From Polaromonas sp. (GTDB lineage Bacteria; Pseudomonadota; Gammaproteobacteria; Burkholderiales; Burkholderiaceae_C), in the NCBI GenBank assembly GCA_025362315.1, contig JANYGP010000019.1, positions 1-64,000 of the forward strand: a stretch of 64,000 nt of DNA, read 5' to 3'. Positions 7,839 to 63,563 of the stretch are shown in pieces (positions within the stretch are counted from its first letter, which is position 1; the number at the start of each line of letters is the position of its first letter). The translations under genes and the position numbers were made by a program. The notes under the pieces were generated by a model, which was not told where the DNA came from, ran no database searches, and saw only the letters and a list, made by a program, of their open reading frames with translations.

Positions 7839-7890
7839 GTACTATTAATTTAGTAGCTGCTTGCGCACGTATTACGGTCGTCCCGCAGTA
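7839..7890 (+). repeat. Dispersed ~50-bp repeat, copy A
   Basis: tactattaatttagtagctgcttgcgcacgtattacggtcgtcccgcagta. Confidence 0.65.
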
Positions 7891-18069: not shown

Positions 18070-19068
18070 CTAATCCAGATGACCCCAAACCATCAAGGCA
18101 TCCCGGCCCTCAACAGCCAGCGTAATTTTGGCTCCTACTGGCAGCAGCACTTTGGTTGCAACATGGCCAAACGGCAAGCCCATCAAAACCCGGGCCTTGA
18201 CCTGGCTTTGCAAGCGGGCCGCGACCCCTGCCAGATTAAACCCGCTGTCATAGCCGGCAACCAGCTTGTACTGGCTGAACTGGCCAAAAACAACGGCCTT
18301 TTGATTCGCCAGCACGCCAGCATGCAGCAGGTGCGTGAGGATCCGTTCAATGCGGTAAGGATGCTCCCCTACGTCTTCAATAAACAAAATACCGCCTTTG
18401 ACGGTGTGCGGTTTCGGAAAATAAGGCGTTCCAACCAGGCTGGCCAGAACTGCCAAGTTTCCACCCCAAAGTACTGCATTTTTTATGATGTATTGGCTTT
18501 TAGCCGTTGTATTATGGGCGCTGGCAGCTACTGTATTTGTAGCAGTGATATCTTTGGGTTTGGGCATTTGCCATCCAGCGCCCTCACCTTGCCCGCTTGT
18601 CAGGTCCTCAAAACACGCCTCCATGATGTCGTCTGGCGTCTGCTCAGTGCCAAAGTCCTCACCGAGCGCCGGGCCCGCCCAGGTCACAGCGCCTGTTGTG
18701 GCAAGCAGTGCCATTTGCAGCGCTGTGAAGTCACTCAGCCCAACAAACCTGGTGCCTTTGTCAATCGCCTTGGTCAAAGCCCTGTAATCGATGGCGGGCA
18801 AAATGCGCGTCAGTCCGTAGCCACCCCGCGTGATGAGGGCCACATCAGCCCCACTGGCAGCAGCCCTGGCAATGGCAGCAAGCCGGGTGCCGTCATCGCC
18901 AGCAAAGCGCTGAAATTTGGCCAGGGCCGTTGTGTCAATTTCAACGTCATGGCCCAGCGTTTTCAGCCGCTGGATGCCGCGCCTGAAACTGGCTTTGTCT
19001 CGAACTGCGCTGGACGGCGAATAAATATAAATGTGTTTTTTCACTTGGTAAGTATCGCACCTGGGCAA
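18070..19068 (-). CDS. LD-carboxypeptidase (muramoyltetrapeptide carboxypeptidase family)
   Basis: KKHIYIYSPSSAVRD, ALITRGGYGLTRILPAIDY, FVGLSDFTALQMALLATTG, GGILFIEDVGEHPYRIERILTHL. Confidence 0.85.
   Translation of the reverse strand: MPRCDTYQVKKHIYIYSPSSAVRDKASFRRGIQRLKTLGHDVEIDTTALAKFQRFAGDDGTRLAAIARAAASGADVALITRGGYGLTRILPAIDYRALTKAIDKGTRFVGLSDFTALQMALLATTGAVTWAGPALGEDFGTEQTPDDIMEACFEDLTSGQGEGAGWQMPKPKDITATNTVAASAHNTTAKSQYIIKNAVLWGGNLAVLASLVGTPYFPKPHTVKGGILFIEDVGEHPYRIERILTHLLHAGVLANQKAVVFGQFSQYKLVAGYDSGFNLAGVAARLQSQVKARVLMGLPFGHVATKVLLPVGAKITLAVEGRDALMVWGHLD
18500..18545 (-). repeat. Dispersed ~50-bp repeat, copy C (in-frame within LD-carboxypeptidase CDS)
   Basis: Reverse strand: actgctacaaatacagtagctgccagcgcccataatacaacggctaa; encodes TATNTVAASAHNTTA. 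Confidence 0.7.
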
Positions 19069-20432: not shown

Positions 20433-20482
20433 TTGCTATTTTTACAGTAGCTGCCTGCGCCGGTGTTATGGGGGCTACAAGC
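20433..20482 (+). repeat. Dispersed ~50-bp repeat, copy D
   Basis: tgctatttttacagtagctgcctgcgccggtgttatgggggctacaagc, intergenic next to glmM 3' end. Confidence 0.65.
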
Positions 20483-28284: not shown

Positions 28285-28986
28285 ATGAACACTCATTTCC
28301 ATGTCGATGCAAACGTTAAAACAAATGTCAGGTACAAACTGCCGTTTGGTGCCGTTGCTATCAAGCTGGTAGCTGCTTGCGCACTAGTTACCTGCGCTAC
28401 AGCCACTTCTTACGCCCAAAGCGTGTTTCGGATTGTGGGTGCGGACGGCAAGGTGACGTTTTCAGACAAGCCACCGGTTGAGGCCAACGCAAAAACAACT
28501 TCTGGCGTTTCTGCATCAGGTGGCGGTATTGCCAGCAGCCAGCTGCCTTTTGAGCTTCGCCAGGTTGCCCAGAAGTTCCCTGTCACGCTGTACACGGGTG
28601 ACAACTGCGGCCCTTGCCAGTCAGCCCGGACCATGCTTTTGAGCCGCGGTGTGCCATTTATTGAAAAAACGGTCAATACCAACGACGACACGCAGGCACT
28701 TCAGCGCCTGAGTGGTGACAACTCATTGCCGTTCGCCACCATTGGCGGCCAGCAACTCAAGGGTTATTCAGATTCGGAATGGACGCAGTTTTTAAATGCG
28801 GCGGGTTATCCGGCAACTTCCATCCTGCCGGCCAGTTACCGTCAGGGCGCTGCCATGCCGATGGTGGCTGTGTCTGCAGCGGCAAATGCGCCAGCTTCAG
28901 CACCGCGCGTTGCACGCGCAGCCCAACCCGCCCCGTCTACCGCGCCGCCTCCCGCTGCAGCCAATCCGGCAGGCATTCGTTTTTAA
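28285..28986 (+). CDS. Secreted DUF4124/glutaredoxin-domain protein
   Basis: Signal peptide, [18 protein letters not shown] (DUF4124-like), [30 protein letters not shown] (glutaredoxin CxxC). Confidence 0.82.
28355..28404 (+). repeat. Dispersed ~50-bp repeat, copy E (in-frame within signal peptide)
   Basis: ttgctatcaagctggtagctgcttgcgcactagttacctgcgctacagcc encodes [16 protein letters not shown]. Confidence 0.72.
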
Positions 28987-29666
28987 CTCGCGGGCTTAAA
29001 AGTCAGGGTCTGTATGCCTGAGTCAGCTGCCAGCAAACACACACTGGCTTTTTGAAATGCAAACACGCCAACAGTCACCACCCCCGGCCAGTTGTTGACC
29101 TCGGCTTCAAATGCCAGGGGCTGCAGAATCTTCAAACCAGTGACATCCAGGATGTGTTGCCCGTTGTCGGTCACGAGCGGCCCGCCTGCTTTAACACGCA
29201 AGGTTGCCATGCCGCCCATGGCAGCAAATTGCTTCGCGATACGCCGTGCAGCCATCGGGATCACTTCAACCGGCAGCGCAAACCCGCCCAGCGTCTGAAC
29301 CCGTTTGGACGCATCGGCAATGCACACAAACTGCCTGGCCAGCGCTGCCACGATTTTCTCGCGCGTCAATGCCGCGCCGCCGCCTTTGATCATGTAACCG
29401 GCGTGGTCAATCTCGTCCGCACCGTCAATGTAGACTGCCAATTCATCGATTTCAGACGCGTCAAAAACCTCAATGCCAAGCGCCTGCAAACGCTGTGTGG
29501 AAGCGATGGAGGACGACACCGCGCCCTTGATCTGCCCAGCGATAGTGCCTAGCGCGTCGATGAATTTATTGACAGTGGAGCCGGTGCCCACGCCCACAAT
29601 GCTGCCGGGAAGGACATAGGCCAATGCGGCTTGGCCAACGCGTGTTTTGAGTTCGTCTTGAGTCAT
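28983..29666 (-). CDS. rpiA: Ribose-5-phosphate isomerase A
   Basis: [48 protein letters not shown]. Confidence 0.95.
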
Positions 29667-29767
29667 GGTGTGGAAAGTTAAAGCTGGATTGAGTTTGAGA
29701 CAATGAGGCAAGCTGACAATCCAGCAAGTTCAAATAACTGGTTCAAATAACAAGTGCAAATTATCTG

Positions 29768-30823
29768 ATGGCATTCCTTCCTTACGCGCTGGCCCGACCT
29801 TTTTTATTTGGCCTGGACGCTGAAACAGCTCATGACGTCACCATGGGCAGTCTGGCGCGTACCCAGGGCACGCTGCTGGAACTGGCTTACCGCTGCACAC
29901 GGGTGGATGATCCCATCGAGCTGGCGGGCCTGAAGTTTGCAAACCGCGTGGGCCTGGCCGCCGGGCTGGACAAAAATGCCCTGTGCATTGATGCGCTGGC
30001 TTCCATGGGTTTTGGTTTTGTTGAAGTTGGCACCGTGACGCCCAAACCGCAAGCCGGCAATCCCAAGCCGCGCATGTTTCGGCTTCCCGAGGCCAACGCG
30101 CTGATCAATCGGCTTGGCTTTAACAACGATGGCCTGGATGCGTTTGTTGCCAATGTCAAAAAGTCGAAAATTCGTCAAATCAAAAACCCGTTGATCCTTG
30201 GCCTGAACATCGGTAAAAACGCAGCCACGCCCCTTGAAAATGCGGTCGACGACTATTTGATTTGCCTGGACGGCGTGTACCCGCATGCCGACTATGTGAC
30301 AGTCAATATCTCCAGCCCCAACACCAAAAACCTGCGCGCACTGCAAAGCGACGAAGCACTGGATGCGCTGCTAAGCGCCGTTGCCAAACGCCGGGACCAG
30401 CTGGTCAAACAGCACAGCAAACGCGTGCCGATATTTGTCAAGATTGCCCCCGATTTGAACGAATCGCAAATTGACGTGATTGCCGCCACACTCAAGCGCC
30501 ATGACATGGACGGCGTTGTTGCCACCAACACCACGCTCAGCCGCGATGCCGTACAAGGACAGCGCCATGCTGAAGAGGCCGGCGGCCTGAGCGGCTCACC
30601 TGTACTGGTTGCCAGCAACCGCGTGATCAGCCAGCTGCGTTCGGCGTTGGGCAAAAGCTTTCCGATCATGGGTGTGGGCGGCGTGATGGGTGCGGCAGAC
30701 GCGGTGTCCAAAATCAAGGCGGGTGCTGACGTAGTGCAAATTTACACCGGCTTGATTTACAGGGGCCCAGGGCTGGTCACAGACGTTGCCAGGGGCTTGA
30801 AAAAGATGAAAAATAGCTGTTAG
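29768..30823 (+). CDS. pyrD: Quinone-dependent dihydroorotate dehydrogenase
   Basis: [63 protein letters not shown]. Confidence 0.97.
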
Positions 30824-30862
30824 CGCACTAGACACGGGCGCTAACAGCTACTGTTTAAGTAG
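30812..30862. repeat. Dispersed repeat, copy F: near-perfect palindrome, likely bidirectional terminator
   Basis: TAGCTGTTAGCGC (30814-30826) / GCGCTAACAGCTA (30838-30850), 13-bp arms, 11-nt loop, spans both stop codons of convergent genes. Confidence 0.8.
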
Positions 30863-31951
30863 CATATTGGCTACATATTCACCAATGGCAAGCGAGCTGG
30901 TCAAGCCTGGCGACTCAATGCCGAACAAATTGACCAGGCCCGGCACACCGTGAACATCCGGGCCCTGGATCACAAAATCTCCAGCAGACTGCCCCGGCCC
31001 GTGCAGCTTGGGCCTGATGCCTGCGTAGTCGGCTTGCAGCATGCCGTCTTGCAGCGCTGGCCAATATTTTCTGACCTCGGCATAAAAAGCATCGCCCCGG
31101 CTGGGGTCAACGGCCAGGTCATCTGGTGAATCAACCCACTGGACATCGGGGCCGAACCTTGCCTGTCCACCCAGATCCATTGTCAAATGTACGCCCATTC
31201 CGGCGGCTTCAGGCACGGGGTAAATCAGGTGGCTGAAGGGTGCCTTGCCTCGCAGCGTGAAGTAATTGCCCTTGGCCCAAAACGTTGGCGGCACATGCTG
31301 CGCGTCCAGACCCTTGATGCGGCTGGCAATTTGTGGGGCATTCAGTCCGGCAGCGTTGATGACCATGCTGGCAGACAGAGCGGTGCCGTCAAACGCTATC
31401 ACATCAATAGCTGCTTGCGCCCGTATCATGTGGGCTATAGCCGTATTAAGCACTGTCGCACCACCTGCATTTTCCATATCACCCTGCAGCGACAGCATCA
31501 GAGTGTGGCTGTCCACAATACCGGTACTGGGTGAGGCAATCGCAGCAACGCATGTGAGTTGCGGTTCCCTGGCCCGCGCCTCCCCGCAGGTCAGCAGCAC
31601 CAGATCATCGACGCCATTGCGGGCGGCTTTGGCAACGATGCCTTGCAATTGACTCACTTGTGATGCATGTGTGGCTACCAGCAGTTTGCCGCAGCGGCTG
31701 TGGCCAATGCCCCGCTCGGCACAGTAGGCATACAGCAGGTGTTTACCTTGCACACAAAGCCGCGCTTTCAGTGAGCCTTCAGGGTAATAAATGCCCGCAT
31801 GAATGACTTCGCTGTTGCGCGAACTGGTGCCAGTGCCAATGGCGTGGGCAGCCTCCAGCACCATGACCTCACGGCCGCGCAACGCCAGCGCCCGGCCAAT
31901 GGCCAGGCCCACAACGCCTGCTCCGACGACGATGCAATCAACTTTGTCCAA
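30848..31951 (-). CDS. NAD(P)/FAD-dependent oxidoreductase, L-2-hydroxyglutarate oxidase-like
   Basis: [62 protein letters not shown]. Confidence 0.9.
31394..31444 (+). repeat. Dispersed ~50-bp repeat, copy G (antisense within FAD oxidoreductase CDS)
   Basis: cgctatcacatcaatagctgcttgcgcccgtatcatgtgggctatagcc. Confidence 0.7.
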
Positions 31952-31963
31952 CCTGGCTGCCCT

Positions 31964-32947
31964 TTAAAGTTTGCGAGTGTCTGTTTTGACAAGCAACTCT
32001 ACCAGCGACTGCAAATGTTTTTTCAATGGCGCAAAACCGGGCGTGACTTCCAGGGTGTCTTCAGACATGTACAGCTTGCGATTGATTTCCAGCTGAATGC
32101 TGTGACGCTGCGCATCCGGGTTGCTGTAGCGGCGCACCAGTTCCACGCCTTTGTACGGATGGTTATACGACACGCTGTAGCCAAAACCTTCGAGCAGAGC
32201 GCAGATTTTTTTCGACAAGGCAGGATCAGCGGTTGTGCCGTCCCGATCACCAACGACGAAGTCAGCATGCGCCTCGCCCGGGAATTGAGTGGCATGGCTT
32301 GACGCGATGGCAGGCATGGAATGGCAGTTGATGTGAATGCTGTAGCCATGGCTGGCATGGGCGGTGTCAATGGCACTGGATACTGCGTCGTGGTACGGCT
32401 GCCAGCAATTGGCAATGCGTTTCTGCAGCTCGGCAGCGCTGAGCTTTCGGGCGTAAATGGGCATGCCGTCGTCCAGCGAACGCCAGATCAGCCCTTTGCC
32501 CAACCGCACTTTTGACATGATGCTGGCATCGGTTTCAATCAGGCCCGGCCAGGGCGTTTCTAGCAGAGTTTCATCAATCTCGGTTGTGTTGCGGTTGGTG
32601 TCCAGGTAACTGCGTGGAAATTTGGCTTCAACCCAGTGGACCCCGAGGCGGGGGGCAAAGTCGTAAAGCTTTTCTACGTGCGTGTCTTCAGCGCGGCGCA
32701 AGGCCTGCGCATCGCAGCTGAACTGAAAGTCTGCCGGATACTGCGTGCCGCTGTGGGGAGAGTCCAGCACCAGCGCGGTATTGCCCGGTATAAAGTGAAT
32801 CATTGAAGACATTGAAGACATTGAAGACATTGAAGTCGTTGCAGACATTGCAGACGCTGAAACCATTGATGCGGTTGATGTCATTGTGCCCATGCCCAAA
32901 CGCGAACACCTTTCGCGTTTGATCAACAACAGGCTTGCCGGGTGCAT
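31964..32947 (-). CDS. N-formylglutamate amidohydrolase family protein; true start uncertain
   Basis: LVLDSPHSGTQYPADF, THVEKLYDF, INCHSMPAIASSHATQFPGEAHADFVVGDRDGTT. Confidence 0.85.
   Translation of the reverse strand: MHPASLLLIKRERCSRLGMGTMTSTASMVSASAMSATTSMSSMSSMSSMIHFIPGNTALVLDSPHSGTQYPADFQFSCDAQALRRAEDTHVEKLYDFAPRLGVHWVEAKFPRSYLDTNRNTTEIDETLLETPWPGLIETDASIMSKVRLGKGLIWRSLDDGMPIYARKLSAAELQKRIANCWQPYHDAVSSAIDTAHASHGYSIHINCHSMPAIASSHATQFPGEAHADFVVGDRDGTTADPALSKKICALLEGFGYSVSYNHPYKGVELVRRYSNPDAQRHSIQLEINRKLYMSEDTLEVTPGFAPLKKHLQSLVELLVKTDTRKL
32802..32882. repeat. Degenerate 9-bp tandem repeat (ATTGAAGAC)n at 5' end of the amidohydrolase ORF
   Basis: Three perfect and several degenerate nonamers; codes for SMSSMSSMSSM on the minus strand. 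Confidence 0.85.
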
Positions 32948-33918
32948 CAGTCCAGACTGATCTTGGCAAATTTGGCGATGCGCTGCATTTTGTCAATTTC
33001 TTTTTTGATTTGAATACCAAAGTCATCTGGCGCTGTGCCCGTTGCAAACAAGCCCTGGGCGGCCAGCTTGTCCCGAATGGCGGGCTCCTTCAACGCCTGG
33101 GCAACGGCATCGTTGATGCGTTTGACGGTTGCCGCTGGCGTGCCCGCAGGGGCAACCAGACCAAACCACGACGGGTCGTTGTTGGAAAACAATGCCAGCT
33201 CACCGTAAGTTGGCACATTCGGCAACACGTCCAGCCGCTTGCCCCAGGACACAGCAATGGCACGCAGTTTGCCCGACTGAATGAAAGGCAAAGACGACGC
33301 GACCTGGTCAAAGTACATGTTGACTTGCCCCGCCACCACGTCGTTCAGTGCGGGGCCTGCACCCCGATACGGAATGTGCACCATGAAGGTATTGGTCGTG
33401 CTTTTGAAAAGCTCGCCCCACATGTGGCCAATCGTGCCATTGCCCGGGGACGCAAACGTCACCTTGCCCGGATTGGCCTTGAGGTATTTGATCAGTTCAG
33501 CGTAATTGGTCACGGGCAACGCTGCATTGACCACCAGCACGCCCGGCGCCTTGACCAGTTCTGTCACGGGTGCAAAGTCTTTGATCGGGTCATACGGCAG
33601 TTTTTTGTACACCGAAGGGTTGACACCATGCGTTGACAACGTGGCCACGCCCAGCGTGAAACCATCGGGCGCAGACTTGGCAACTTCGCTCATGCCAATG
33701 GAGCCGCCTGCACCTGCGCGGTTTTCAACAATCACGCTCTGGCCCAAAATACGCGACAAAGGCTCCGTCATGACCCGGGCCGTGATGTCGGTAGCGCCAC
33801 CCGGCGGGAAAGGCACCACCAGACGCAGCGGCTTGGTCTGCTGCGACCATGACAGTCCGGGGAGCAATGACGCGCTGCTCAAAATTGCCAGGTTTTGAAG
33901 CAATTGCCGTTTTTTCAT
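32947..33918 (-). CDS. Bug family tripartite tricarboxylate transporter substrate-binding protein
   Basis: KPLRLVVPFPPGGATDITARVMTEPLSRILGQSVIVENRAGAGGSIGMSEVAKSAPDG. Confidence 0.93.
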   Translation of the reverse strand: MKKRQLLQNLAILSSASLLPGLSWSQQTKPLRLVVPFPPGGATDITARVMTEPLSRILGQSVIVENRAGAGGSIGMSEVAKSAPDGFTLGVATLSTHGVNPSVYKKLPYDPIKDFAPVTELVKAPGVLVVNAALPVTNYAELIKYLKANPGKVTFASPGNGTIGHMWGELFKSTTNTFMVHIPYRGAGPALNDVVAGQVNMYFDQVASSLPFIQSGKLRAIAVSWGKRLDVLPNVPTYGELALFSNNDPSWFGLVAPAGTPAATVKRINDAVAQALKEPAIRDKLAAQGLFATGTAPDDFGIQIKKEIDKMQRIAKFAKISLD

Positions 33919-34023
33919 GAAGTCTCCAGTTGTGTTGATAGCGTCATTGTGAAAGTCAACACACTTTGTGACAAATGAAGCTTCAGACTTACTTCATTCC
34001 TGGATGGCATAAACTACGGGCCT

Positions 34024-34929
34024 GTGAAACGCCTCCAACCGCCCCTGCATTTGCTGAAAGCTTTTGTCACCACCGCACGTTTTGCAAATGTGTCCAGGGC
34101 CGCTGAGGCATTGCATTTGAGCCAGAGCGCGGTGAGCAAACAAATTGCCGAACTTGAAGACATGACAGGCGTGCTGCTGTTTGAACGCATTCGCAAAAGG
34201 TTGATCCTGAGCCCGGCAGGCATGCGCTATGAAGCCGCCATCAAGCCCCTGTTGGCCCAACTGGAGGCAGCTACGCTGGAGCTGATCACCAGTGGCGATG
34301 GCGGCGGTGCGCTGCACCTGTCAACACTGCCAACCTTTGGCGCGAAATGCCTGATACCGTGTTTGCCAGCATTTCAGGCACTGCACCCGCAAATCACACT
34401 GCATTTTGTGCCCTATGTCCAGGGCTATGACTTCACGCGGGCCGACCTGGACTGCTCGATATTGTTTGGCGATGGCACCTGGCCTGGCGCTGTGGCTGAA
34501 TACATCGCCGGCCATGAAATGGCCCTGATTGCACCGCCATCCTTGAGAGTTGCCACGCCTCAGGAACTGGCTGGCATGACGCACCTGCACCATGTCAGTG
34601 TGCCGCAGGCGTGGACCCACTGGAGCAACGTGCATGGTGTGAGCAAATTCAACCTGCTGGCCGGCCCGCAGCTTGACCAGTTTCACAGCCTGATACGGGC
34701 TGTCATGGCCGGCATGGGTGTTGCGTTGGTGCCGCATTGTCTGGTCAGGGACGACATTGCTGCAGGCCTCGTGTCAGCACCATTCAAAACAGATGACCAT
34801 GGAGGTTACGGTGGCTATGTTGGCAGCACAGGTTACTACCTTTGTTACCCCGAGGCGCGCAGGCACCCGGTGCCGCTCAGCCACTTTCGCGACTGGTTGC
34901 TGGCCCTGACCTTACCTGAATTAACCTGA
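34024..34929 (+). CDS. LysR family transcriptional regulator (GTG start)
   Basis: HLLKAFVTTARFANVSRAAEALHLSQSAVSKQIAELEDMTGVLLFER HTH. Confidence 0.92.
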   Translation: MKRLQPPLHLLKAFVTTARFANVSRAAEALHLSQSAVSKQIAELEDMTGVLLFERIRKRLILSPAGMRYEAAIKPLLAQLEAATLELITSGDGGGALHLSTLPTFGAKCLIPCLPAFQALHPQITLHFVPYVQGYDFTRADLDCSILFGDGTWPGAVAEYIAGHEMALIAPPSLRVATPQELAGMTHLHHVSVPQAWTHWSNVHGVSKFNLLAGPQLDQFHSLIRAVMAGMGVALVPHCLVRDDIAAGLVSAPFKTDDHGGYGGYVGSTGYYLCYPEARRHPVPLSHFRDWLLALTLPELT

Positions 34930-35018
34930 CCTGAATTAACCTGACCTGAATTAATCTGACCTGAATTAATCTGACCTGACTTAACCTGACCTGACTTAAC
35001 CTGACCTGAATTAACCTG
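34915..35018. repeat. 15-bp minisatellite, 7 units (CCTGAATTAACCTGA)
   Basis: Tandem units with C/A and T/C variants; first unit contains the LysR stop codon. Confidence 0.95.
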
Positions 35019-35199
35019 CGAAACGCTGGCTATGGGTTTTAAAGGGTTTTAAAAGTTCAGTCCTACAGGCGCAGGCTAAATGGACCTACAGACCCGAAAT
35101 GCCAGTCTGCTTATATTAAAAGCATCTTTCGCAGCATGACATGATGCGTGCCGAAGGTTAAACCTCACTGGTCTTTCACAACACTTATCAGGACGCAAA

Positions 35200-35898
35200 A
35201 TGATTCAAAAACGCAAGCTGTCGATCGCACTTTCAACCGTGTTGGCCTCCCTGGCCATGGCCGGGTTGGCTCAAGCCCAGACGAGTTCAGGGTCTGGAAC
35301 GACTTCTGGAACCACCAGCACCACCGCAACAGGTTCAGGACCAACAACCAGTTCTTCGTCTGGCATGTCATCGAGCGCCATGTTCGGCGGCGATGGTTCC
35401 ATGTTTGCAGCTGGGTCCGGGTATCTGGGGTTTAACCTTGGCCAGTCGACCTATCGCCTGAACAATGGATTGGGTGGTTTTGGTTCACAGCAACGTAAAA
35501 ACTCCTACAACATCTACGGCGGCGGCTATTTCAGTGAAAACGTTGGTGTCCAGCTGGGCTACACCGACTTTGACCGCATCAGCCGTGCAGGCGGAACAAC
35601 GTATGCCAATGGCTTTACAGTCAGCCTGGTGGGCCGTTTGCCAGTTGCACCGTCATTCAACTTATTGGGCCGCCTGGGTACCACCTACAGCCGTACCGAC
35701 GTTTCTTCCAATCCGGCTTCGGGCATTGCTGCTGGCAAGGCAAGTGGTTGGGGTGCGTCCTACGGCGTTGGTGCTGAATACATGTTCAGCCCCAATTGGT
35801 CTGGAGTGGTGCAGTACGACGAATATCGCATGAAGTTTGCAGGCACCGGCCGTGAAAAAATCAACGTTGCCAGCCTGGGCGTGCGTTACAAGTTCTGA
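35200..35898 (+). CDS. OmpA-like beta-barrel outer membrane protein
   Basis: Signal peptide, Ser/Thr-rich linker, barrel strands with C-terminal SLGVRYKF. Confidence 0.75.
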   Translation: MIQKRKLSIALSTVLASLAMAGLAQAQTSSGSGTTSGTTSTTATGSGPTTSSSSGMSSSAMFGGDGSMFAAGSGYLGFNLGQSTYRLNNGLGGFGSQQRKNSYNIYGGGYFSENVGVQLGYTDFDRISRAGGTTYANGFTVSLVGRLPVAPSFNLLGRLGTTYSRTDVSSNPASGIAAGKASGWGASYGVGAEYMFSPNWSGVVQYDEYRMKFAGTGREKINVASLGVRYKF

Positions 35899-35914
35899 AG
35901 TCCCGGAATTGAAA

Positions 35915-35962
35915 TGCTATTGATAGGGTAGCTGGTCACGCCCGTCATTGTTGGGCTCTGGT
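35915..35962 (+). repeat. Dispersed ~50-bp repeat, copy H (diverged)
   Basis: tgctattgatagggtagctggtcacgcccgtcattgttgggctctgg. Confidence 0.55.
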
Positions 35963-35976
35963 CTTAAAAGATTCTA

Positions 35977-36008
35977 AACCCTGGAAACACATGTTTTCAG
36001 GGTTTTTT
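35977..36008 (+). terminator. Rho-independent terminator
   Basis: AAACCCTGGAAACACATGTTTTCAGGGTTTTTT. Confidence 0.75.
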
Positions 36009-36038
36009 ATCGAGCCAACTTGCTCTGGCCAATAGGTT

Positions 36039-36752
36039 TCACTTCATCTGCACTGAACCATTGACATTCACCTGAACAGCACTTTTGCCTGCCTCTACCG
36101 GAATGGCTGAGTTTTCAGCATCTGCCGAACGCGCCATGGCCATCATTGGGCGACCTCTGGGCTGAAAGCCCTGGTCATTGGCGTTGATGCTGACTTCACG
36201 CAGTGTGTAGCCAGTAAACCCAAAACCTTTGGCAACTTCAATTGCCTTGGCCTTGAACCGTTCAATGGCCATGGCTTGGGCTTCGCCTTCAGCTTTAGAG
36301 CGTTGCTCCCGGCTCAGTGCAAAGCTGACGTTGGCCAGGCTCAATGTCTGGATTTTGCCTGCCGTTCCCGTGATGCGAGTGAAGTCCCGGCCCTCCAGCA
36401 CCAGTTCTGTCGTGCCCTGCCAACCATTGATTTTGCTGTTCTTGTCATAGCGTGGGTAAAGGCTGAAATTGCCCGTCCGAACATCCATCTGGTTGGGTGC
36501 TGCCTGCGATTTGGCAACCGCAAGGGCAGCGTCCAGCGCCTGTTTTAGCTGCGTTTGCACGCTATTTGCATCAGCCCCGCTGAGGGTGGTGCTCATGGCA
36601 ATCGACAGCAGGTCCTGTTGAACTTCAACGCTGGCATTGCTGCTGAGCTGGGCAATATTCTGCAAAACGTCGCGTGCGCTTGATTGTTGTGCAAACAGAC
36701 CTGTAACGCAGGTCATCAGTGCGCAGGCAGCTATTGATTTTATAGTCAGCAT
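36039..36752 (-). CDS. SIMPL (DUF541) domain periplasmic protein
   Basis: Signal peptide; EQRSKAEGEAQAMAIERFKAKAIEVAKGFGFTGYTLREVSIN is SIMPL-like. Confidence 0.8.
   Translation of the reverse strand: MLTIKSIAACALMTCVTGLFAQQSSARDVLQNIAQLSSNASVEVQQDLLSIAMSTTLSGADANSVQTQLKQALDAALAVAKSQAAPNQMDVRTGNFSLYPRYDKNSKINGWQGTTELVLEGRDFTRITGTAGKIQTLSLANVSFALSREQRSKAEGEAQAMAIERFKAKAIEVAKGFGFTGYTLREVSINANDQGFQPRGRPMMAMARSADAENSAIPVEAGKSAVQVNVNGSVQMK
36703..36747 (-). repeat. Dispersed ~50-bp repeat, copy I (in-frame within signal peptide)
   Basis: Reverse strand: actataaaatcaatagctgcctgcgcactgatgacctgcgttacagg encodes TIKSIAACALMTCVTG. Confidence 0.68.
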
Positions 36753-58856: not shown

Positions 58857-58900
58857 TGCTCCTAAAAAAGTAGCTGCCAGCGCCCACATTGATTGGCTTG
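58857..58900 (+). repeat. Dispersed ~50-bp repeat, copy O (diverged 3' half)
   Basis: tgctcctaaaaaagtagctgccagcgcccacattgattggctt. Confidence 0.6.
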
Positions 58901-58949
58901 GGGACTAATATGGTACTTAAAAACACTTCTGGATGGGTTTTTGGACGCT

Positions 58950-62013: not shown

Positions 62014-62068
62014 ATTGCCTCGTAATTGCCTCGTTATTGCCTCGTTATTGCCTCGTTATTGCCTCGTT
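62014..62068. repeat. 11-bp tandem repeat (ATTGCCTCGTT) x5 in crtI-crtB intergenic region
   Basis: ATTGCCTCGTA then four ATTGCCTCGTT units; overlaps the crtI stop codon. Confidence 0.93.
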
Positions 62069-63563
62069 ATTGCGTTTCCGTCAGCGTTTCCAGCATCAGG
62101 CCAGCCGTTGCTTTGGCAGAGCCCACCACGCCGGGAATTCCGGCGCCAGGATGCGTTCCAGCACCCACAATGTACAAGTTGGAAATGACCGAGTCGCGGT
62201 TGTGCGGCCTGAACCAGGCGCTTTGTGTCAAAACAGGTTCAAGCGAAAAAGCTGAACCGTGTTCTGCCGCCAGCTCGTCTCGAAAGTCAGCAGGCGTGAA
62301 AATCCGGCAGGTGAGCAAGTCGCTGCGAAGCCCCGGAATGTAGCGCTCTTCCAAATAAGCCAAAATCCGGTCCCGCAGCTTGGGGCCCTCAACTGCCCAA
62401 TCAACCGGCGCATGCCCTAAGTGTGGCACCGGTGCCAGCACACAGTGGGCAGAGCATCCCGGTGGTGCCAGGCTGGCGTCAGTCACGCTGGGGGAATGCA
62501 GGTACAAAGAAAAATCTTCAGGCAATTCGTGGCCGTGAAAAATATCGTGAATCAGGTCGCGATACCCGGCCCCAAAGCAGACAACATGGTGGCGCAACTG
62601 GGGCTGCTCTTTTTTCAAACCGAAATGGATCACAAAGAGCGACATGCTGAATCGCTTGGACTGCAGGCGTTGCGTCTCTTGAATGCCTCTGGCCTCCCCG
62701 GCCAGCAAATTGCGATAGGTGTGCACCACATCTGCGTTGGACGCAACCTGGTCAAACGGCAGCTGTACGCCGCCTGTCCATACCGCCACGGCCCGGTTGC
62801 CCTTGAGTTCGATCCGCTCGACTGGTGAATTGAGTTTGAGCGTGCCACCCAGCTCTTTGAACAGCTGCAGCATGGCGCGCACCAGTGCGCCAGTACCGCC
62901 GCGCGGAAACCACACGCCGCCATGCCGTTCGAGCGCATGAATCAGTGTGTAGATCGACGACGTCTCAAACGGATTGCCACCCACCAGCAGGCAGTGAAAC
63001 GAAAACAACTGCCGCAAATGCTCATCTTCAATAAACCGGGACACGGTGGAGTAAACGCTTTTCCAGGCCTGCAGGCGCAGCAGTTGCGGGCCAGCCTGCA
63101 CCATGCTGCGAAAGCTTAAAAAAACCGTGCTGCCCAACTTGACATAGCCCTGGTCAAAAGCTGCTTGTGAAAATTTTAAAAATTCACGATAACCGGCGAC
63201 ATCGTCCGGGTTCAGGGCAAAGATTTGACGGTCCAGCTCCTCTTGGTCGTCGGCATAGTCAAAGTGGGTGCCGTCCTCCCAGCACAGCCGGTAAAAAGGC
63301 GCCACGGGGAGCAAATCCACATAGTCAGAAAGCTTGCGCCCTGACAATGAAAACAGTTGCTCCAGAGACACTGGATCGGTAATGACAGTCGGGCCCGCAT
63401 CAAAGGTAAAGCCGCTGTCTTCATACACATAGGCACGGCCACCGGGCTTGTCTCGCGCTTCCAGTATGGTGGTGCTGATGCCGGCTGATTGCAGCCGTAT
63501 TGCCAGGGCAATGCCGCCAAATCCGGACCCAATCACAACAGCAGTTTTAGGCGATGAACTCAT
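62067..63563 (-). CDS. crtI: Phytoene desaturase
   Basis: AVVIGSGFGGIALAIRLQSAGISTTILEARDKPGGRAYVYEDSGFTFDAGPTVITDP; C-terminal GAGTHPGAGIPGVVGSAKAT. Confidence 0.96.
   Translation of the reverse strand: MSSSPKTAVVIGSGFGGIALAIRLQSAGISTTILEARDKPGGRAYVYEDSGFTFDAGPTVITDPVSLEQLFSLSGRKLSDYVDLLPVAPFYRLCWEDGTHFDYADDQEELDRQIFALNPDDVAGYREFLKFSQAAFDQGYVKLGSTVFLSFRSMVQAGPQLLRLQAWKSVYSTVSRFIEDEHLRQLFSFHCLLVGGNPFETSSIYTLIHALERHGGVWFPRGGTGALVRAMLQLFKELGGTLKLNSPVERIELKGNRAVAVWTGGVQLPFDQVASNADVVHTYRNLLAGEARGIQETQRLQSKRFSMSLFVIHFGLKKEQPQLRHHVVCFGAGYRDLIHDIFHGHELPEDFSLYLHSPSVTDASLAPPGCSAHCVLAPVPHLGHAPVDWAVEGPKLRDRILAYLEERYIPGLRSDLLTCRIFTPADFRDELAAEHGSAFSLEPVLTQSAWFRPHNRDSVISNLYIVGAGTHPGAGIPGVVGSAKATAGLMLETLTETQ

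Follow-up and report, generated by a model that had tools for sequence, protein, structure and literature searches.

The uptake signal sequences (USS) of Pasteurellaceae and the DNA uptake sequences (DUS) of Neisseriaceae are present in hundreds of copies on both strands and occupy permissive places in coding DNA, mostly in one orientation and frame, without having been transposed there (PMC2346458, PMC2397512). Intragenic bias of orientation and position is known for uptake sequences (PMC2346458), DUS originate at least partly by recombination (PMC2397512), and the USS of Haemophilus has AT tracts beside its core (PMC7811141). A dispersed motif resembling these in copy number, strand symmetry, placement and flanking AT tracts is described here from a 64,000-nucleotide stretch of a Polaromonas sp. 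genome (the window: assembly GCA_025362315.1, contig JANYGP010000019.1, positions 1 to 64,000, forward strand), in which two copies, E and I, lie over the signal-peptide cores of two unrelated exported proteins. Comparison of orthologues indicates that it is probably not an inserted element but a motif at the level of the DNA, which has come and gone in place wherever a site permitted it and which overlies pre-existing signal peptides. Unlike USS and DUS, it measures about 95 bp with a phased tail, against 10-30 bp, and occurs in a different bacterial family; a role in uptake would be hypothetical.

Strong gyrase sites and the bacterial interspersed mosaic elements (BIMEs) and repetitive extragenic palindromes (REPs) share with the motif a composition phased over tens of base pairs and a preference for 3' or convergent intergenic positions (PMC6379681). 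The motif, known here from sequence alone, differs in its near-invariant core, its single phased arm and its occurrence also inside genes. For Comamonadaceae, a statistical survey describes spaced motif pairs of unassigned function (PMC5217627), among them ATAGCT(N)22CAAAAG in P. naphthalenivorans CJ2, with 125 copies, 14% of them in genes; the most pairs, 140, were in Rhodoferax ferrireducens T118. The CJ2 pair and the present motif belong to the same family and genus group, share the hexamer ATAGCT, and are dispersed and mostly intergenic, often between convergent genes. Spacing and right half (here GCTACAG) differ from those of the CJ2 pair as given in its published description, and neither a phased tail nor an overlay of signal peptides appears in the consulted text of the survey (PMC5217627).

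Dispersed repeats read in frame within protein genes include the Rickettsia palindromic elements and RU-2, which contributes to the signal peptide predicted for Y. pestis YPO1552 (Delihas 2007, PMC2759123). Both are regarded as inserted mobile elements, whereas between the orthologues compared here no insertion is seen. The BRE repeat of Bordetella and other Betaproteobacteria (PMC3110155) is likewise dispersed, also found in Comamonadaceae and in some copies wholly within coding sequences; its description sets it apart, as it is about 90 bp long, has 63.7-78.9% GC, and is tandem and similar to variable-number tandem repeats in Bordetella.

The genome that holds the window (G000) comprises 122 contigs and 3.48 Mb, with completeness of 88.5% and contamination of 6.3%. 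A profile hidden Markov model (HMM) of the repeat was built from 44 copies, copy E being left out of training, and a sample consisting of the window and 60 further stretches (1.26 Mb, 36% of the genome) was scanned, with copies counted at E<0.01. The sample contained 215 copies, divided 109/106 between the strands, and the reversed sample contained none with the same HMM and cut-off. Genome-wide, the exact pattern CTAT-N6..12-TAGCTGCTNGCGC has 104 matches, 52 per strand, and its reversed form has 0. The core thus occurs in many copies on both strands, far above chance, as expected of an uptake signal. Exact matches to core and right half were also found in records of Polaromonas, Rhodoferax, Acidovorax, Ottowia, Simplicispira, Alicycliphilus, Giesbergeria and Variovorax. 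Gene calls come from a simple script based on codon usage, which leaves the starts uncertain; signal peptides were assigned from sequence features and protein family. Copies E and I and their genes are:

28357..28404, + strand, copy E, covering the signal-peptide core in the DUF4124/glutaredoxin gene (HMM 33.0 bits, E=4.7e-8)
28285..28986, + strand, open reading frame for a predicted DUF4124 and glutaredoxin exported protein of 233 aa (Pfam PF13511, PF00462)
36699..36745, - strand, copy I, covering the signal-peptide core in the SIMPL gene (HMM 29.3 bits, E=7e-7)
36039..36752, - strand, open reading frame for a predicted SIMPL (DUF541) exported protein of 237 aa (Pfam PF04402, E=3.5e-32)

The initial annotation, made from the letters of the window, had placed one repeat in the signal peptides of these two genes, in an identical reading frame and ahead of unrelated mature domains, and had concluded that an inserted repeat was co-opted as an export signal. 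Its observation is confirmed and its interpretation is partly supported. Both copies lie within 1-4 bases of the positions given, and both are true members of the repeat family, as their scores come from an HMM that had not seen copy E and the reversed sequence gave no match at E≤1. Each sits in a signal peptide in the frame NTA GCT GCN TGC GCA, copy I encoding TIKSIAACALMTCVTG, and Pfam assigns the mature parts to DUF4124 plus glutaredoxin and to SIMPL/DUF541, respectively. When compared with the consensus GCTAT-N8-TAGCTGCTNGCGC-N13-GCTACAGCC, copy E fits 26 of the 26 fixed bases and copy I 21 of 26. Each copy was also recoded synonymously 20,000 times with the codon usage of the window's genome. 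The observed score was reached by 2/20,000 recodings for E and 6/20,000 for I, indicating that the match resides in the DNA and not in the peptide alone.

Of 77 intragenic copies in the sample, 41 were sense and 36 antisense. A single phase held 35 of the sense and 31 of the antisense copies, and in a second genome, G014, 10/10 sense and 17/19 antisense copies fell in one frame. In sense phase 0 the core itself reads TAG, and in phase 2 a TAG or TAA is usually met further on, leaving NTA GCT GCN NGC GCN, which encodes [IV]AA[CSG]A. With the remaining sense frames closed or mostly closed by stops, E and I would be expected to share a frame, and their doing so carries no functional information.

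The pattern recurs in nine genes within the 36% of the genome scanned. Nine sense copies lie in the first 75 nt (25 codons) of a predicted gene, compared with 3.2 expected from gene length (p = 0.0036), as does 1 of the 36 antisense copies. Independent scoring of the first 130 nt of 1,158 genes returned the same nine at 39-61, followed by 20 and 4. They encode SIMPL, DUF4124/glutaredoxin, SCO1/SenC, DUF1223, LolB, DsbD, polysaccharide deacetylase and TctC receptor proteins and one protein without a Pfam match; eight of the nine belong to export-type Pfam families, and in LolB the motif supplies the lipobox-like LIAGC. Further cases of this pattern outside G000 are a GspD-like secretin and proteins of the DUF1775 and DUF3047 families. 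A DsbD gene (L128:3214-5412, + strand) carries the motif twice in one frame, once within the signal peptide and once next to the final transmembrane region. Separately, an isoleucyl-tRNA synthetase gene (L151:87-3011, + strand) carries a motif copy near its C-terminus and a second in-frame, insert-like peptide, SPQPSPVLGRGG...PLAPGERAGVRVG, that looks like another dispersed repeat.

Orthologues (about 30 for each gene) were aligned for the DUF4124/glutaredoxin gene (GRX), SIMPL, PepN and PgeF. In all four, motif scores at the same aligned site were graded from 0 to 33-39 bits, and no 16-aa insertion gap was found, including within PepN and PgeF, which are ordinary enzymes. The empty site expected in copy-free orthologues of an inserted mobile repeat, such as a MITE, an RU/ERIC or a Rickettsia palindromic element, was seen at none of the four. 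SIMPL orthologues scored from 0 to 36.8 bits in an alignment free of insertions in all but one, and those at 0 bits encode nearly the same peptide (e.g. TSRLIAACAVAACTTALFAQ, KKATHLFAACALLAASTGLFAQ) from unrelated GC-rich codons. The initial annotation had held that the same peptide with unrelated DNA in orthologues from distant genera would refute its reading and point to convergence; such a peptide was found for SIMPL, but in species of one genus and not in distant genera. GRX scored 33.0 bits in G000, 23.5 bits in G012, and 0 bits in G015, G038 and G059, where the signal-peptide stretch has identical length; the outgroups scored 0 to 8 bits (G006 and G044, 0) with the signal peptide conserved. 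As G000 is sister in the tree to G012 plus the clade of G015, G038 and G059, the motif was either gained before that split and then lost once, or gained twice. Under either history, as judged from the alignment, gain or loss came without a change in length of the signal-peptide stretch. A pairwise gap comparison between G000 and G014 yielded just 3 pairs in which the orthologue lacked the motif, too small a number for a verdict. In acetoacetate-CoA-ligase-like genes of two genomes (L367:5413 and L148:12939) the motif lies at the same site; the G000 stretch is 12 nt longer than in most orthologues and of equal length in the four nearest relatives.

Since motif-free GRX and SIMPL orthologues keep signal peptides whose length is equal or similar, these export signals do not depend on the motif, and the proposal that a mobile repeat entered two genes at their 5' ends and was co-opted as a hydrophobic export signal appears very improbable. 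That E and I are bona fide family members, the N-terminal excess and the published RU-2 case in Y. pestis YPO1552 (PMC2759123) speak for such co-option; the nearly identical SIMPL peptides encoded by other codons and the frame forced by stops speak against it. So does a near independence of the copies. Mean pairwise identity was 0.479 at variable positions and 0.291 in the flanks, the same values as in column shuffles (0.479 and 0.291), so that the positions between fixed bases and the flanks are almost independent between copies and share little common ancestry; on average, copies show no sign of the descent from one another expected of a mobile repeat. A second account, in which ancient insertions in a common ancestor of the genus or family decayed unequally and left the peptides as relics, is also unlikely, if less so. 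The graded scores across the genus in SIMPL, PepN and PgeF, together with the presence of the core in several Comamonadaceae genera, are consistent with it. It fits poorly with the GRX outgroups, all motif-free with a conserved signal peptide, with the equal length of the motif-free GRX sister clade and with the near lack of common ancestry at variable positions.

The motif instead appears to have been written over existing signals, and not to have been inserted and recruited to make them. Copies in coding DNA survive mainly in the one sense and one antisense frame least closed by stops. The permitted sense frame encodes a hydrophobic Ala/Cys-rich stretch that signal-peptide cores tolerate, so that copies accumulate over signal peptides already in place, the motif itself not being needed for export. 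Several observations weigh against gain and loss in place. Length differences from orthologues were found beside genic copies in a Tex-like gene (11 aa), PepN (8 aa) and PgeF (4 aa). Ancient insertion followed by decay also fits the ungapped graded alignments of SIMPL, PepN and PgeF, and a clean contrast between clades is present only at GRX, where gain followed by loss is as likely as two gains. The orthologue scores come from a model trained on G000, in which motif variants of relatives would score low. Gene-start scores within the genome are bimodal with few intermediates, and the N-terminal excess was not reproduced in G014 (1/10, not significant). Variable positions also show a slight excess of similar pairs (48 vs 25 at an identity of at least 75%), so some copying is possible.

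In order, the motif consists of GCTAT, the core TAGCTGCTNGCGC, near-invariant across 12 bases, GGGCTACAG at a fixed distance, and A/T tracts every 10.5 bp to about +80. The composition of aligned copies places the tracts at about -16, -5, +18, +28, +38, +49, +60, +70 and +80, in genic and intergenic copies alike. On a single side, the 10.5-bp period runs well beyond the 48-bp repeat, both in G000 and, with earlier fading, in G014; between +41 and +83 its amplitude was 0.083 in G000 and 0.066 in G014, whereas 500 rotations reached at most 0.023 and 0.027, respectively. A phased composition with a period of about 10.5 bp, as in the arms of a gyrase site, is found on one side, and aligned copies show no phasing upstream of about -20, where a second arm would lie. 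In other members of the Comamonadaceae (80 loci), tracts stand out clearly at +38 and +49 and become fainter further along. At L100:1625-1667, a gene's 3' end holds overlapping sense and antisense matches; the motif can therefore form a near-palindrome.

The phased, one-sided A/T tail suggests a candidate protein that would recognise the core and then bend or wrap the DNA downstream of it. Substitution or homologous recombination may then favour variants that fit this protein, and the function served might lie in DNA uptake, in gyrase or nucleoid organisation, or elsewhere. One tentative proposal is that the motif serves in the management of supercoiling, as a strong wrapping site of the gyrase or nucleoid-protein type comparable to BIMEs or to the strong gyrase site (SGS) of phage Mu. 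The A/T phasing over about +37 to +83 is close in length to a single periodic arm of the gyrase motif in E. coli (46-47 bp), and the Mu SGS likewise relies on one flexible arm (PMC6379681). Intergenic copies are also densest between convergent genes (1.84 per kb), with 0.76 per kb between co-oriented genes, and rarest between divergent ones (0.24 per kb); the near-invariant core, where the E. coli gyrase motif is degenerate, and the absent second arm do not fit a site of this type. Even spacing, which some uptake sequences have, was not shown, the coefficient of variation being 1.0 in G014 and 0.72 in G000, the latter biased by the 20-kb pieces. Rather doubtful is a role resembling that of the Pasteurellaceae USS, in which the motif would bias natural transformation towards the DNA of kin. 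High copy number, strand symmetry, insertion-free gain and one preferred coding frame would accord with it, as would phased A/T tracts on one side of the core, as in USS (PMC7811141, PMC2346458), although USS have just two AT tracts, which the phased region here greatly exceeds in length. ComEC-family (192 bits) and DprA-family (240 bits) proteins are present, but both are widespread and occurred also in control bacteria without a known uptake sequence. No report of uptake sequences in Comamonadaceae was found in the open-access literature; natural transformation is reported for one member of the family, Verminephrobacter eiseniae (PMC4212676). Among 2.9 million viral contigs of IMG/VR there were only 52 single matches, a count whose meaning depends on the share of viruses with related hosts. 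Least credible is a function as RNA, for instance as a terminator or a structured element. Copies favour regions between convergent genes, and GCTG/CAGC and GCCC/GGGC are able to pair; against it, the phased positions are A/T rather than T, and sense and antisense genic numbers are similar. This reading was dropped, as there was no Rfam match and the fold z-scores of six copies ranged from +1.3 to -4.3 with no common fold.

Taken with its spread across genera, the motif may, with some reserve, be seen as a Comamonadaceae-wide signal of about 95 bp (core plus one-sided helically phased tail) that is read by a protein and kept in place, for example by biased uptake, with strength enough to rewrite, in the absence of any insertion, both signal peptides and portions of housekeeping enzymes. 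If so, it would to our knowledge be the first uptake-type or wrapping-type signal of such kind in the family. The attractive account of a repeat turning into a secretion signal is corrected, and matching N-terminal peptides of unrelated proteins need not imply common origin via insertion. More widely, a family-wide DNA-level signal would shape protein sequence, most visibly in signal peptides because these tolerate the one open frame. The long phased motif also offers a testable target in an environmentally important bacterial group.

Other motif copies in the window are:

31395..31442, + strand, 46.9 bits, the window's strongest copy, lying within a predicted oxidoreductase gene (30848-31951, - strand) in antisense orientation
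7842..7875, + strand, motif copy, 37.2 bits
9737..9782, - strand, 33.8 bits, sense copy within a predicted gene, in the same open frame
20435..20482, + strand, motif copy, 33.1 bits
49617..49665, + strand, motif copy, 40.8 bits
52025..52072, + strand, motif copy, 31.6 bits
54587..54627, - strand, motif copy, 31.2 bits
57339..57381, + strand, motif copy, 41.8 bits
45041..45089, - strand, motif copy, 27.7 bits
30816..30863, - strand, 24.2 bits, over the 3' ends of two convergent genes
30812-30847, + strand, 12.3 bits, weak opposite copy overlapping the preceding one
18496..18537, - strand, 23.3 bits, sense copy within a predicted gene
58864..58903, + strand, weak copy, 19.6 bits, E=8e-4

The G014 orthologue of the oxidoreductase gene aligns ungapped at the strongest copy and scores 16 bits. 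The window also contains two tandem arrays, one of a 15-bp unit (CTGACCTGAATTAAC) at 34896-35033, directly upstream of an outer-membrane barrel gene at 35200, and one of an 11-bp unit (ATTGCCTCGTT) at 62014-62073.

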